A stretch of 64,000 nucleotides of DNA from Candidatus Nitrotoga sp. AM1P. GTDB taxonomy: Bacteria > Pseudomonadota > Gammaproteobacteria > Burkholderiales > Gallionellaceae. Numbering within the stretch: the first letter of the stretch is position 1; every line of letters begins with the position of its first letter. Position numbers and translations under genes: made by a program. The stretch spans positions 1,302,001 through 1,366,000 of the forward strand of contig NZ_AP019547.1 in the NCBI RefSeq assembly GCF_013168275.1, read 5' to 3'. Positions 2,193 to 5,591 of the stretch are shown in pieces. Below the pieces are notes generated by a model. The model saw only the letters and a program-made list of their open reading frames with translations. It made no database searches and was not told where the DNA came from.

Positions 2193-2840
2193 TTAGGTGC
2201 ATTTTTTGTAATCGACAAATTTTTCTTGCACGTCGTGCATTTGTTGCGGCGTAAGAATGTGCGGTTCACCTGCCTGCAAAGCGCGCCAGTACAATTCGCA
2301 CAAAAATTCGACCTCAATGGTTACTGTCAACGCATCGGTTAAATCAGAGCCCAACGCAATCATGCCGTGGTTAGCCAGCAAGCAAGCTTTTCGACCTTCA
2401 AGCGCGGACAATACATAGTCTGAAAGCGCCTGTTCGCCAAACAACGCATAGGGTGTGCAGCGGATTGTATTGCCGCCCGCCGCGGCAATCATGTAATGCA
2501 CGGCTGGAACATCCTTGCGCAAACAGGCCAATGTCGTGGCAAACGCTGAATGAGTGTGGATGACAGCGCCCACGTCAGGACGATTGGCTAGAATGTCACG
2601 ATGGAAGCGCCACTCGCTGGTGGGCTTGCCACCGCACAGAACATTGCCATTCAAATCCATACGTACCATGTCGGCGGGAGTCATTTTCGCCACCGACATC
2701 GCAGACGGCGTAATTAATATGCCATCACCACAACGCACGGCAGCATTGCCGGAAGTACCGCGATTCAAACCTTGATCGAGCAAACGCTGGGACACATCCA
2801 GTAACTCCAGGCGCAGGCCATCTTCACCGGATGGCATCAT
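2193..2840 (-). CDS. Class II aldolase, FucA-like; likely methylthioribulose-1-phosphate aldolase (Ald2-like)
   Basis: A 215-aa zinc-dependent class II aldolase. Metal ligands are visible as SEWRFH (Glu76), HTH (His95, His97) and NHG (His158). The sequence resembles E. coli fuculose-phosphate aldolase closely (RGTSGN, DGILITPS, AVHYMIAAAGGN), more than it resembles the dehydratase MtnB. The start ATG overlaps the mtnP stop (ATGA), indicating translational coupling. Established knowledge: in the DHAP shunt, Ald2 splits 5-methylthioribulose-1-phosphate into DHAP and (methylthio)acetaldehyde. The neighbours mtnP and mtnA supply exactly that substrate. Family and fold are certain; the substrate is inferred from context. 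Alternatives are fuculose- or ribulose-phosphate aldolase. Confidence 0.82.
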   Translation of the reverse strand: MMPSGEDGLRLELLDVSQRLLDQGLNRGTSGNAAVRCGDGILITPSAMSVAKMTPADMVRMDLNGNVLCGGKPTSEWRFHRDILANRPDVGAVIHTHSAFATTLACLRKDVPAVHYMIAAAGGNTIRCTPYALFGEQALSDYVLSALEGRKACLLANHGMIALGSDLTDALTVTIEVEFLCELYWRALQAGEPHILTPQQMHDVQEKFVDYKKCT

Positions 2841-3724
2841 GACTTAACTTTCAACACCCGGCCCGCAATAGCATCCAGCTTTTCAATCATGGCTGGATCG
2901 CGCATTTCCGGTGCAGTAATGAGTGCGAATTCCAAGGCCGAACGACAACTACAGACATCGGCCAGAGTATCAGTGCGCACTTTCGGAACGATGTGCTTTA
3001 CCAGCGTTTTCGCCTTGTCGGCATTTTCGCCAAGCATCTTGATGATCTGCCCCACCGTTACATGCTCATGGTCGGGATGCCAACAATCATAGTCAGTGAC
3101 CATCGCCACGGTGGCGTAACACAGCTCTGCCTCACGGGCGAGCTTGGCTTCTGGCATGTTGGTCATGCCAATGACATCACACCCCCAGGTACGATAAAGA
3201 TTTGATTCAGCCAGACTGGAAAACTGCGGCCCTTCCATAACCAGATAGGTCCCGCCACGAACGATTGGGATATTTGCCTCTCTCGCGGCCATCTCAATAT
3301 GATCACCCAGTCTTTTGCAAACAGGGTAAGCCATGGAGACATGCGCCACCAATCCCGTGCCAAAAAAAGACTTATTACGCGCAAAAGTACGATCGATAAA
3401 TTGATCAATAATCACGAACGTGCCCGGCGGCAAGTCCTCGCGCAAAGAACCAACGGCACTAACTGAAATGACATCAGTCACCCCTGCCCGCTTCAGCACG
3501 TCGATATTGGCGTGAAAATTAATTTCAGTCGGCGGAATTCTGTGTCCGCGACCATGACGGGGCAAAAACACAACATTGTGACCGTCCAATTCACCAAACA
3601 ATAATTCACTGGATGGCTCTCCAAACGGCGAAGCGACCTTTTCCCAGCGCTTATTGGTCAACCCGGCAATGTCATAAATCCCGCTGCCGCCGATTATGCC
3701 GATTCTTTCTGGTACATGAATCAT
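2837..3724 (-). CDS. mtnP: S-methyl-5'-thioadenosine phosphorylase
   Basis: Phosphorolysis of methylthioadenosine, a by-product of polyamine synthesis, to adenine and 5-methylthioribose-1-phosphate. At 295 aa it is typical of the trimeric PNP/MTAP family. The N-terminal IGIIGGSGIYD, the phosphate-site LPRHGRGHRIPP, SAVGSLRED and MTNMPEAKLAREAELCYA are all present. It is the first gene of the minus-strand salvage cluster, and its stop overlaps the aldolase start by 4 bp. The ATG at 3724 lies inside a 194-bp sequence that recurs at 5398-5591, where a fragment of this gene's 5' end survives. The upstream region here is therefore one copy of a duplicated promoter region. Confidence 0.95.
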   Translation of the reverse strand: MIHVPERIGIIGGSGIYDIAGLTNKRWEKVASPFGEPSSELLFGELDGHNVVFLPRHGRGHRIPPTEINFHANIDVLKRAGVTDVISVSAVGSLREDLPPGTFVIIDQFIDRTFARNKSFFGTGLVAHVSMAYPVCKRLGDHIEMAAREANIPIVRGGTYLVMEGPQFSSLAESNLYRTWGCDVIGMTNMPEAKLAREAELCYATVAMVTDYDCWHPDHEHVTVGQIIKMLGENADKAKTLVKHIVPKVRTDTLADVCSCRSALEFALITAPEMRDPAMIEKLDAIAGRVLKVKS

Positions 3725-3861
3725 ACTTGTCCGTAATTGTTTTATGTTTACAAGCGGATTGAAACAGGAAGTATAGTTTTATTCAAGACAATGAATGCTA
3801 GCCCACGCTATTGCCTTTAACAAACGTTGGTATGATACCCATCCATTACCTACTTGAACTC
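3668..3861. repeat. 194-bp direct repeat, left copy (mtnP 5' end plus intergenic region)
   Basis: Positions 3668-3861 align without gaps to 5398-5591 at a constant offset of 1730. The 3' two thirds are nearly identical (for example the stretch from ttcaagaca to tacttgaactc). The mtnP-proximal part carries scattered substitutions. The copy covers the first 19 codons of mtnP and the whole former mtnP-nadE spacer, so it is a duplication of chromosomal sequence and not an element end. The two copies bracket the 1.5-kb insert with the GIY-YIG gene. Confidence 0.93.
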
Positions 3862-3919
3862 AGCAAGCGCAGCTTGGGCTAATGTAGGTTGGCGCTGAAC
3901 TTGCGAAGCCCAACACGAA

Positions 3920-3984
3920 ATCAAGGGGGGGCAGTCTTGACACAACGTCAGGCCGAATGCGTGATGTCAAGACTTCCCCTTGAT
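3920..3984. repeat. Long imperfect palindrome, left copy
   Basis: A 65-bp hairpin-forming sequence. Outer arm ATCAAGGGG pairs with CCCCTTGAT; middle arm AGTCTTGACA pairs with TGTCAAGACT; inner ACG pairs with CGT around a tcaggccgaatg loop. The core from CTTGACA to TGTCAAG is shared with 5330-5397 with two base differences. The outer arms differ between copies but stay complementary, including a C-G pair here where the other copy has A-T. Such compensation suggests selection on the folded form. It lies about 256 bp upstream of the GIY-YIG gene start. Confidence 0.85.
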
Positions 3985-4240
3985 GCTCTGACTCCTTGAT
4001 GTTCCTGCCAATCGACAGCCGATTTCTGTAGCCAATGGAGGTAGCAGTGATAATCCTCCTCGGCAAAGAAACACGGCTTGCGATTAATTCCGCGCTGCAC
4101 GACGTGCTGCGGTATATTAGCTAGCTTAATGCGTGGGCGACGCTGCCTGCTGGCTCAAATTAAATGCGATACGGCCCCCTTAGACCGGCATCCCTTTTTC
4201 TTTGGATTACAATGGGGGACTCAATCTTCTTGGAGCCGTG

Positions 4241-5350
4241 ATGAATTCTCATATTTACATTCTGACCGATGGGGTCAATACTAAAATTGGGATCACCACC
4301 GACCTCGCCAAGAGAATGGCTTCCTACAATACACATAACGCCACGATCCAACTCGTCGAAAAATATCCCTGTGCTGAGGATGAAGCCAAACGGGTCGAAA
4401 CCGCGATCAAAAGCATCTTTAAAGGTCAGCTCACCGGCAAAGGGAAAGAATGGTTTAGTGTCAGCCCTGATGTGGTGGATCGGTATGTGTCTAATCTCTT
4501 AGAAAAGCCACTCTCAGAATTGCTCTTGCCGTCTTTCCACGGAGCTCAGCTGACCGCAGTCGCTGACGATCTCAAAGAAGACATTCTGAAGCAGATTCAA
4601 GCGAGAAATATCAAATCCGTTCAACTGAAACAGCAGTTCGCCGAACTCTTTGCGACAAAGTTTTCCCTGGGGATTGTTGAACACAAACTGCCTGAGAATG
4701 TGGTCGTTAAAGATAACTTGTCGATCGACATTCATCACTGTATTTCCCCCAGTGAATCTCGTATTGTTAAAGAGGCTGTGACTAATAACCATATTCGAAT
4801 GCCGTGTGAGGATCATGTTTGGAGATTTTTCAACTTAGTTAAATTGGCGAGTGGATATTACATCGCAGTGTGCACGGCTAAAGTCTCCATGCCCTATATC
4901 GAGCGTCTTCAAAAAGAAGACGCTGAAACGGAAGTGGCTGAGTTTGCGTATGCCCTTGGCCTATATGCGACCTTTCATCACGAATGGTCTTGGCATTTCC
5001 CGAATAAAACAGGACTGATTCTTTATCAGCCGAAAACACCTTTTCACCTGACTCTTAAACGCTGGGATCAATCCTTCAGGAAATGGATCATTGAAAGACG
5101 GGAAGTCTTGAAAAATGAGCCGTTCCAGGATCGTGACATGTTGGCTAAAACCATTGAAGATATCGCGCACGACAACAGCTTCCCCCTCGATATTCAATCC
5201 TATCCGGAACTGTGTCAAAAATACTTTTCCCCCTTCTTGGGCTTTGCAACCTATGATGAATATCCGCACTGGCAAAAAGAAGCTCATATTTTTCTACTGG
5301 AAAAATGGAAAGCCTCCATGGGTCAGGAAAATAAAGGGGGCAAGTCTTGA
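4241..5350 (+). CDS. GIY-YIG/T5orf172-like nuclease-domain protein of unknown function
   Basis: 369 aa from the ATG at 4241, chosen because TTGGAG lies 5-6 bases upstream; the frame opens 13 codons earlier without such support. Residues 1-75 look like a T5orf172/Mug113 variant of the GIY-YIG nuclease fold: HIYIL at 4-8, KIGIT at 15-19, Arg25, Glu53 in AKRVETAI, and GKEWF at 68-72. The remaining ~290 residues are not recognised. They are mixed hydrophilic, with no clear membrane segment, and include an aromatic-rich stretch (YATFHHEWSWHFPN). The stop codon lies inside the right palindrome. The gene is the only cargo of the insert between the 194-bp repeats. It could be a homing-type nuclease, a defence protein or a regulator. 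Confidence 0.75.
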   Translation: MNSHIYILTDGVNTKIGITTDLAKRMASYNTHNATIQLVEKYPCAEDEAKRVETAIKSIFKGQLTGKGKEWFSVSPDVVDRYVSNLLEKPLSELLLPSFHGAQLTAVADDLKEDILKQIQARNIKSVQLKQQFAELFATKFSLGIVEHKLPENVVVKDNLSIDIHHCISPSESRIVKEAVTNNHIRMPCEDHVWRFFNLVKLASGYYIAVCTAKVSMPYIERLQKEDAETEVAEFAYALGLYATFHHEWSWHFPNKTGLILYQPKTPFHLTLKRWDQSFRKWIIERREVLKNEPFQDRDMLAKTIEDIAHDNSFPLDIQSYPELCQKYFSPFLGFATYDEYPHWQKEAHIFLLEKWKASMGQENKGGKS

Positions 5351-5397
5351 CACAACGTTAGGCCGGATGCGTGATGTCAAGGCTTGGTCCCTTTATT
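5330..5397. repeat. Long imperfect palindrome, right copy
   Basis: A 68-bp hairpin. Outer arm AATAAAGGG pairs with CCCTTTATT; AAGTCTTGACA pairs with TGTCAAGGCTT with one wobble; inner ACG/CGT encloses ttaggccggatg. It begins within the last codons of the GIY-YIG gene, whose TGA is at 5348-5350, and ends exactly where the right 194-bp repeat starts (5398). It could act as a transcript 3' end, a recombination site or an element terminus. It lacks the T-run of a classic terminator. Confidence 0.85.
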
Positions 5398-5591
5398 AAT
5401 GTTATAAATCCCGCTGCCGCCGATTATGCCGATTCTTTCTGGTACATAGATCATGGTTGTCCGTAATCATTTTAAATTTACAAGCAGATTGAAACAGGAA
5501 GTACAGTTTTATTCAAGACAATGAATGCTTGCCCACGCTATTGCCTTTAACAAACGTTGGTATGATACCCATCCATTACCTACTTGAACTC
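5398..5591. repeat. 194-bp direct repeat, right copy
   Basis: Gap-free match to 3668-3861. This copy directly precedes nadE and so carries the native nadE upstream region. It also carries a useless stub of mtnP on the opposite strand. Differences cluster near the mtnP start (for example tcatggttg against tcatacttg, and cattttaaattta against tgttttatgttta). Two copies drifting apart suggests the event is not very recent. A possible promoter for nadE is TTGCCT (5541-5546) with TATGAT (5561-5566), but the spacing is short and this is weak. Confidence 0.93.
5399..5454 (-). pseudogene. mtnP 5' fragment (first 17-18 codons)
   Basis: Reading the complement from ATG at 5454 gives MIYVPERIGIIGGSGIY, matching the first residues of intact MtnP (MIHVPERIGIIGGSGIYD) before the homology stops at the end of the right palindrome. 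The fragment cannot be functional. It shows that the duplicated segment was copied from the mtnP/nadE junction and fixes the polarity of the event. Confidence 0.88.

Follow-up and report, generated by a model that had tools for sequence, protein, structure and literature searches.

What are the two palindromes that lie between mtnP and nadE in Candidatus Nitrotoga sp. AM1P, and how are they connected with the genes that they enclose? The window, the whole stretch of 64,000 nucleotides analyzed, comes from a 3.01 Mb genome (G000). The host genes around the insert are ones that we take to be mtnP (2837-3724, minus strand) and nadE (from about 5600, plus strand), names that were assigned, like katG below, by reading the encoded proteins. 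The original prediction described a structure-recognized mobile or regulatory element whose palindromes flank a GIY-YIG-like nuclease as their only gene. The insert and its borders contain the following features.

3668-3861, plus strand: left copy of about 194 bp of duplicated host DNA (the mtnP 5′ end and upstream region), 94% identical to 5398-5591; it occurs as one contiguous copy in the four species with an empty site.
3884-3914, plus strand: hairpin on the insert's left border, which we assign to the GTAG-type REP-like class; it starts with GTAG, finishes with GCCCAAC and recurs where other Nitrotoga inserts have their left junction.
3920-3984, no strand: left palindrome, read as a terminal inverted repeat (TIR) dimer (sequence, self-alignment, covariance model, folding).
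3993-4142, minus strand: remnant of a RAYT/TIRYT-type Y1 transposase, 50 N-terminal codons, adjoining the left palindrome (translation and the similarities given below).
4173-4184, minus strand: possible decayed terminal repeat upstream of the transposase remnant (AAGGGGGCC), weak and seen by eye.
4241-5350, plus strand: GIY-YIG (MUG113/T5orf172) protein of 369 amino acids, the final seven of which (ENKGGKS) lie beyond its natural end and are nearly all palindrome-encoded (ORF, Pfam, homologue alignment).
5330-5397, no strand: right palindrome, read as a TIR dimer, the source of the stop codon of the GIY-YIG frame (sequence, covariance model, folding).
5398-5591, plus strand: right copy of the duplicated host DNA (94% identical to 3668-3861), followed by nadE.

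Both palindromes are present as first described, the right one abuts the duplicated host DNA (the boundary falls between 5397 and 5398), and the GIY-YIG stop codon (TGA, 5348-5350) lies inside it. The nuclease is not the sole gene there, as had been claimed, because the transposase remnant is found as well, along with the GTAG-type repeat. As single-stranded DNA, the palindromes fold far better than shuffled sequences (z = -5.6 for the left and -8.2 for the right; for either one, 0 of 200 shuffles fold as well). The outer arms differ between the two palindromes, yet remain self-complementary (ATCAAGGGG/CCCCTTGAT versus AATAAAGGG/CCCTTTATT), as predicted.

The arms were also said to covary, and this holds in part. 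Over 22 Nitrotoga copies and 26 pairs, with statistics that ignore the relatedness of the copies, 84.7% of cells are paired versus 82.3% in shuffles (0/500 as high), the covariation score is 0.145 versus 0.118 (6/500), cells changed on both sides number 18 versus 12.4 (14/500), and further pair types 30 versus 26.5 (34/500). Pairs with a change on both sides number only 7 versus 6.2 (205/500), which makes "covary" too strong a word, and a control structure shifted by +2 columns reaches 0.130 all the same. For the outer arms a partner-swap test, which likewise ignores relatedness, gave an own mean of 7.25 against a cross mean of 6.30 (p 0.016, 24 copies); by subset, p was 0.046 for 19 hotspot copies, 0.029 for seven left-boundary copies, 0.22 for eight right-boundary copies, and 0.39 for five solo copies. 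Template switching within near-palindromes can mimic covariation. The aligned copies suggest modest arm covariation within Nitrotoga. Scoring the outer C-G/A-T pair is difficult in view of indels in the arms, which alter its register in A1. Exchange of half-arms inside the palindromes was considered and demoted, since only one or two positions support it. By eye, another small repeat (AATACTGTTTGG / AGTACTGCTCA) seems to break a palindrome arm in G095 and G098 (about L027:6421-6531 and L028:3920-3990). Rfam has no match at the palindromes of the window, and at six other loci it matches only one G108 palindrome (to MIR8742, on either strand), far below the gathering score.

The palindromes belong to a dispersed family, which is directly observed. 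A scan for the exact core finds three in the window genome. A looser pattern matches nine of 158 genomes of the family (Gallionellaceae), all nine within the genus Nitrotoga. Seven public contigs match the palindrome pattern; four bear the name Candidatus Nitrotoga, the other three "uncultured Nitrosomonadales bacterium". A covariance model built from 22 copies detects the palindromes at 25 places, in 11 of the 19 Nitrotoga genomes (matches on the two strands of one place count as one), and weaker relatives in three of 139 other family genomes; a 26th, badly decayed palindrome is in G100 (E 0.0013). At these 25 places the palindromes occur without a transposase gene, as dimers or clusters, and copy number per genome is low. 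Eighteen of the places are at mtnP-nadE and seven are elsewhere, including three at one locus upstream of katG; no clean empty site was recovered at the three solo palindrome loci tried. The third palindrome of the window genome (L039:5323-6300) sits between a HigB/HTH pair and an apparent terminase remnant, and the latter has two matches in G095.

Outside the genus, relatives in G085 and G144 have the same outer arms, GGTCAGGTCTTG...CAAGACCTGACC, around a changed loop. A pattern based on these arms matches six of 158 family genomes and eight of 369 class genomes (a reversed-pattern control gave 0 in both), and it also hits three viral-collection contigs; one of these, L211 (7381 bases), has five GGTCAGGTCTTG palindromes amid apparent phage structural genes. 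In G437, three copies vary inside the stem with self-complementarity kept. Neither the window palindrome nor a 63-nt relative has a match in the plasmid collection.

The gene piece beside the left palindrome indicates what kind of repeat this may be. The remnant is directly observed: its translation, RRPRIKLANIPQHVVQRGINRKPCFFAEEDYHCYLHWLQKSAVDWQEHQG, is stop-free and ends against the palindrome. It is 40-55% identical to sequences at four Nitrotoga loci, the Y1_Tnp loci L076, L077, and L091 and the integron locus L106, near which a Y1 gene is listed, and 49-66% identical to sequences in four plasmid records; two of the three distinct ones are annotated as transposase (R. rubrum accounts for two of the four records). 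The 50 amino acids have no Pfam or NCBIfam match and no relative in viral contigs or phages. All three plasmid relatives opened (R. rubrum, Pseudoalteromonas, and Iodobacter) have inverted repeats with a GGGGTCA tag around the gene, and we observe this tag directly; the repeats include TTAAAAGGGGTCAGACCCC, TCAAGGGGTCAGAGTTGTTGA, and AATAACTGGGGTCAGAGCAAA. The Pseudoalteromonas sequence, TCAAGGGGTCAGAG, compares with ATCAAGGGGTCAAG in Nitrotoga.

With the R. rubrum protein as query, 28 records matched and five further ones were opened. A P. aeruginosa plasmid gene (44% identical to that of R. rubrum) has GGGGACA-tagged repeats on both sides, perfect over 31 nt and starting AAAGGGGACAG; a Skermanella gene (49%) has GGGGTCA repeats upstream only; three Burkholderiaceae relatives at 31-33% have no tagged repeats. 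Counting the R. rubrum gene and four relatives at 43-49%, GGGG[AT][CG]A inverted repeats occur on both sides in four of five and on one side in the fifth, versus none of the three at 31-33%. The P. aeruginosa plasmid gene (L246), which is TIRYT-like, is near a CPCC-family protein, at three places in the record. Among Nitrotoga Y1 loci, 30 of the 95 matches listed were examined: none has tagged inverted repeats or a palindrome inside, two have GTAG-type repeats, and one has repeats of another kind.

Passages of two papers describe a class that fits. Y1 genes may be flanked by long TIRs, some sharing GGGGWSAS, and these TIRs are also found as dimers or clusters (PMC3733652); TIRYT genes fall mostly in TnpAREP subclass 2.1, to which RAYT group 1 is assigned (PMC6006769). 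The arms of the Nitrotoga palindromes carry GGGGTCAA, one letter off GGGGWSAS, and relatives elsewhere in the family carry GGGGTCAG. The original prediction knew of no REP pattern that matched; as far as these passages go (PMC3733652, PMC6006769), the TIR repeats of TIRYT transposases are a published kind that fits, and no new class is called for. We therefore read the palindromes as TIR dimers, REPIN-like and related to the ends of TIRYT transposases. Like the TIR repeats (TIRtrons) in the relevant part of PMC3733652, they are GGGG-tagged inverted repeats, dispersed without a gene as dimers or clusters, and a related transposase remnant adjoins one of them. They differ in the tag itself and in bordering foreign cargo at one hotspot, and no intact TIRYT with these ends was seen in the genus among the 30 of 95 Y1 matches examined, a result that we count against the TIRYT account. 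GTAG-tagged REPs and REPINs with RAYTs are similar as miniature inverted doublets with proposed movement in trans by a Y1 HUH enzyme. Unlike them, the palindromes have arms of about 28 nt, few copies per genome, and no GTAG (GT[AG]G) tag at the foot of the hairpin (consensus AAATCAAGGGG...), and a GTAG-type repeat adjoins them.

Comparison among species indicates how the site behaves, and empty and occupied sites are both directly observed. One uninterrupted 194-bp copy is present between mtnP and nadE in four species (G099, G101, G103, and G110). Inserts at mtnP-nadE are found in nine (G000, G095, G098, G100, G106, G107, G108, G109, and G111), and the 194-bp probe has no match in six of the 19 Nitrotoga genomes. 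Palindromes bound the cargo on both sides in seven of nine inserts, a count that includes G100 (left palindrome decayed) and G106 (on two contigs, the far side cut by a contig), with a duplication of up to 194 bp alongside; G107 and G111 have one palindrome only, on the nadE side, and no left palindrome. A MITE would have short direct repeats of target DNA at its two ends; the repeat at the hotspot is long. G109 has two inserts and three copies of the duplication, the middle one cut to 67 bp, and G106 has a palindrome-cargo-palindrome-cargo-palindrome array. The dispersed family, the occupied and empty sites, and the adjoining transposase remnant support a structure-bearing mobile element, but the tie to the GIY-YIG nuclease is not supported.

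The best explanation, to which we give a probability of roughly 0.7, is that the palindromes are TIR dimers of a TIRYT-kind RAYT transposase and that together with the duplicated flank they make a hotspot at mtnP-nadE, where cargo probably turns over by recombination. The enzyme that recognizes the dimers would be of the TIRYT kind, a single-strand (Y1 HUH) transposase of RAYT type. The palindromes would be miniature, non-autonomous, REPIN-like elements; folded as single strands, they would once have been moved in trans by a TIRYT, and Nitrotoga would since have lost the matching enzyme or still have it unseen. Between species, cargo (the GIY-YIG gene here; integron attI-cassette pieces and other genes elsewhere) may have come in, been exchanged, or been lost. 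Recombination with DNA of related strains, by way of the palindromes and the duplicated flanks, is the most likely route, and recombination between the two 194-bp copies would leave a clean empty site. To our knowledge, a Y1 transposase is not expected to create a target duplication, so the long repeat needs another cause, which counts against the TIRYT account. Also against it are the low copy number, the one-letter departure of the tag from GGGGWSAS, the three relatives at 31-33% that have no tagged repeats, and the two inserts with no left palindrome.

Alternatively, the hotspot may be an old single insertion reshuffled by ordinary homologous recombination between the conserved flanking genes, with the palindromes as passive repeats or terminators. 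This is a serious possibility, although short of probable, and it concerns the hotspot only and is compatible with the palindromes being TIR dimers. The left and right junctions are common to six species (G000, G095, G100, G107, G108, and G109), in which the end of the left copy and the start of the right copy coincide within a base or two; duplication overlaps in G098, G106, and G111 are shorter. The two duplication copies in the window genome differ by 6%, near the low end of the 6-13% by which mtnP and nadE differ from those of other species. Occupied and empty species are intermixed on the mtnP and nadE trees, and these conflict with each other, with several poorly supported branches. In trees of the 194-bp copies, left and right ones are intermingled, which would fit either one old duplication or imported copies. 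An old insertion does not account for cargo that ends at palindromes in seven of nine inserts, for the two inserts and three duplication copies of G109, or for the attI-like pieces in three species.

Differing cargo and integron pieces are observed directly. Cargos compared between species have no shared protein and have in common only short attI- or attC-like stretches of DNA; the comparison covered the ends of the 5.8-kb G111 insert and the available pieces of G106. A Pfam scan of 17 neighboring ORFs found a PemK-like toxin and HTH proteins, with Adhesin_E and cupin matches below cut-offs, and no recombinase; a HigB-like toxin and a phosphatase are beside solo palindromes. Three cargos have at one end an attI-like leader that resembles native loci beside intI (best matches 95% over 43 nt in G106, 98% over 45 nt in G108, and 89% over 54 nt in G109). 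The order is attI-like piece, ORF, attC-shaped site, and ORF in G106, and attI-like piece, ORF, and attC-shaped site in G109; in both, the attC-shaped site is directly 3′ of the cassette ORF. G107 has 72 nt at 85% to the G109 site, and an attC seen there by eye resembles the G109 site and passed no scan.

The attC rules were relaxed stepwise and the final ones chosen after earlier outcomes, so the following counts are exploratory. Strict rules missed the G109 site, as did a looser rule (one match in window positions 8001-64000 and four in 454,470 shuffled bases); the final rule gave two matches in 605,960 shuffled cargo bases, and none in window positions 8001-64000. Its sensitivity is low, since it recovers only one site in the 43,740 bases of 12 native integron loci. 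Of the 19 Nitrotoga genomes, 12 encode an integron integrase above the cut-off. Apart from one weak match (E 0.28), these 12 native loci are free of palindromes. The best integrase match of the window genome (G000:C1:2323030-2323619, at 2323134) is below the cut-off and broken, with two stops. The left palindrome of G108 (L034:5804-5892) is framed by GCCCAAC...GTTGGGC in attC spacing, a cassette R box plus the GTAG-type repeat.

Several hotspot cargos thus have attI-like leaders or attC-like sites, as integron cassettes do, whereas the cargo sits at mtnP-nadE, away from intI, and is bounded by TIR dimers. A bolder idea, which we consider rather doubtful, is that a chromosomal capture locus recombines at the TIR-dimer hairpins. 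These would remove attI-cassette fragments of integrons, and further genes, from their original place and keep and exchange them at mtnP-nadE; such a second-hand cassette array would depend either on a single-strand HUH enzyme or on transformation.

It is unlikely that the palindromes are site-specific sites of an unknown tyrosine recombinase (like attC or lox), with cargo plus palindrome as a cassette and mtnP-nadE as an array. The 34-bp core with a 13-8-13 layout (by eye) would suit such sites, as would the palindrome-cargo arrays of G106, the two inserts of G109, the integron pieces within the cargo, and a GGCTT flank that, by our own count, is at nine of 10 right-boundary copies (the exception is G098) and none of 14 others. 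It fits poorly with the seven palindrome places outside mtnP-nadE, with the lack of a recombinase in the 17 neighboring ORFs scanned with Pfam, and with outer arms that pair well beyond the core. Relatives elsewhere have unrelated loops, unlike a recombinase core, and among the palindromes of the nine inserts, R''/R' and L''/L' boxes in attC spacing fit, by position, only the left one of G108.

The GIY-YIG gene is cargo. The protein matches MUG113 (6e-10) and T5orf172 (6e-9) in Pfam, with the GIY-YIG model itself below cut-off, and a defence library gives weak matches only. Its N-terminal domain is like those of T5orf172/MUG113 GIY-YIG nucleases; it differs from them in a C-terminal part of about 260 residues with no database name and in being cargo here. 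The predicted structure is confident (mean pLDDT 86.5), PDB has no sequence match, and a whole-model fold search gave nothing at E <= 0.001 and missed even the GIY-YIG domain, so it is uninformative. At E <= 0.001 there are 65 relatives, including the window's own protein. None is in genome contigs, viral contigs (single-protein query), plasmids, or phages; an alignment query found one weak viral relative (32% over 64 residues). With 18 of the 65 aligned with the window protein, the nearest relative, P0002 (86-87% identical), ends ...TSTGQ, and the window protein continues with ENKGGKS from about the palindrome edge, which places the junction with the palindrome at the natural stop. The histidine-phosphatase ORF of G111 (L036:4455-5093) likewise terminates within a palindrome (...RGKS).

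Among 100 genomes searched, including all 19 Nitrotoga, the GIY-YIG protein is in the window genome only, and other inserts have unrelated genes, so the predicted link between palindromes and nuclease is not supported, by the very refuting condition that the original prediction set. A GIY-YIG homing element with the palindromes as its recognition site, the lead of the original prediction, is very improbable and largely refuted: the domain is present and phage endonuclease and homing-endonuclease models match weakly, but the nuclease is in one of 19 Nitrotoga against 11 of 19 for palindromes, and palindrome sequence has replaced the stop codon of the nuclease gene.

TIR repeats of TIRYT transposases are already known, although little studied, and what is unusual here is a hotspot with palindrome-bounded cargo. 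The consulted parts of PMC3733652 and PMC6006769 contain no link to passenger genes that we found, and in a literature search we recognized no description of cargo between TIRYT repeats or of the mtnP-nadE locus. We propose that mtnP-nadE is a gene-capture locus, by a mechanism that is unproven. The hotspot is open to test, since sister species range from an empty site to one or two inserts. A locus of this kind, with TIR dimers around exchangeable cargo that includes integron pieces, would point to a way for cassettes to escape from integrons and turn into ordinary chromosomal genes.
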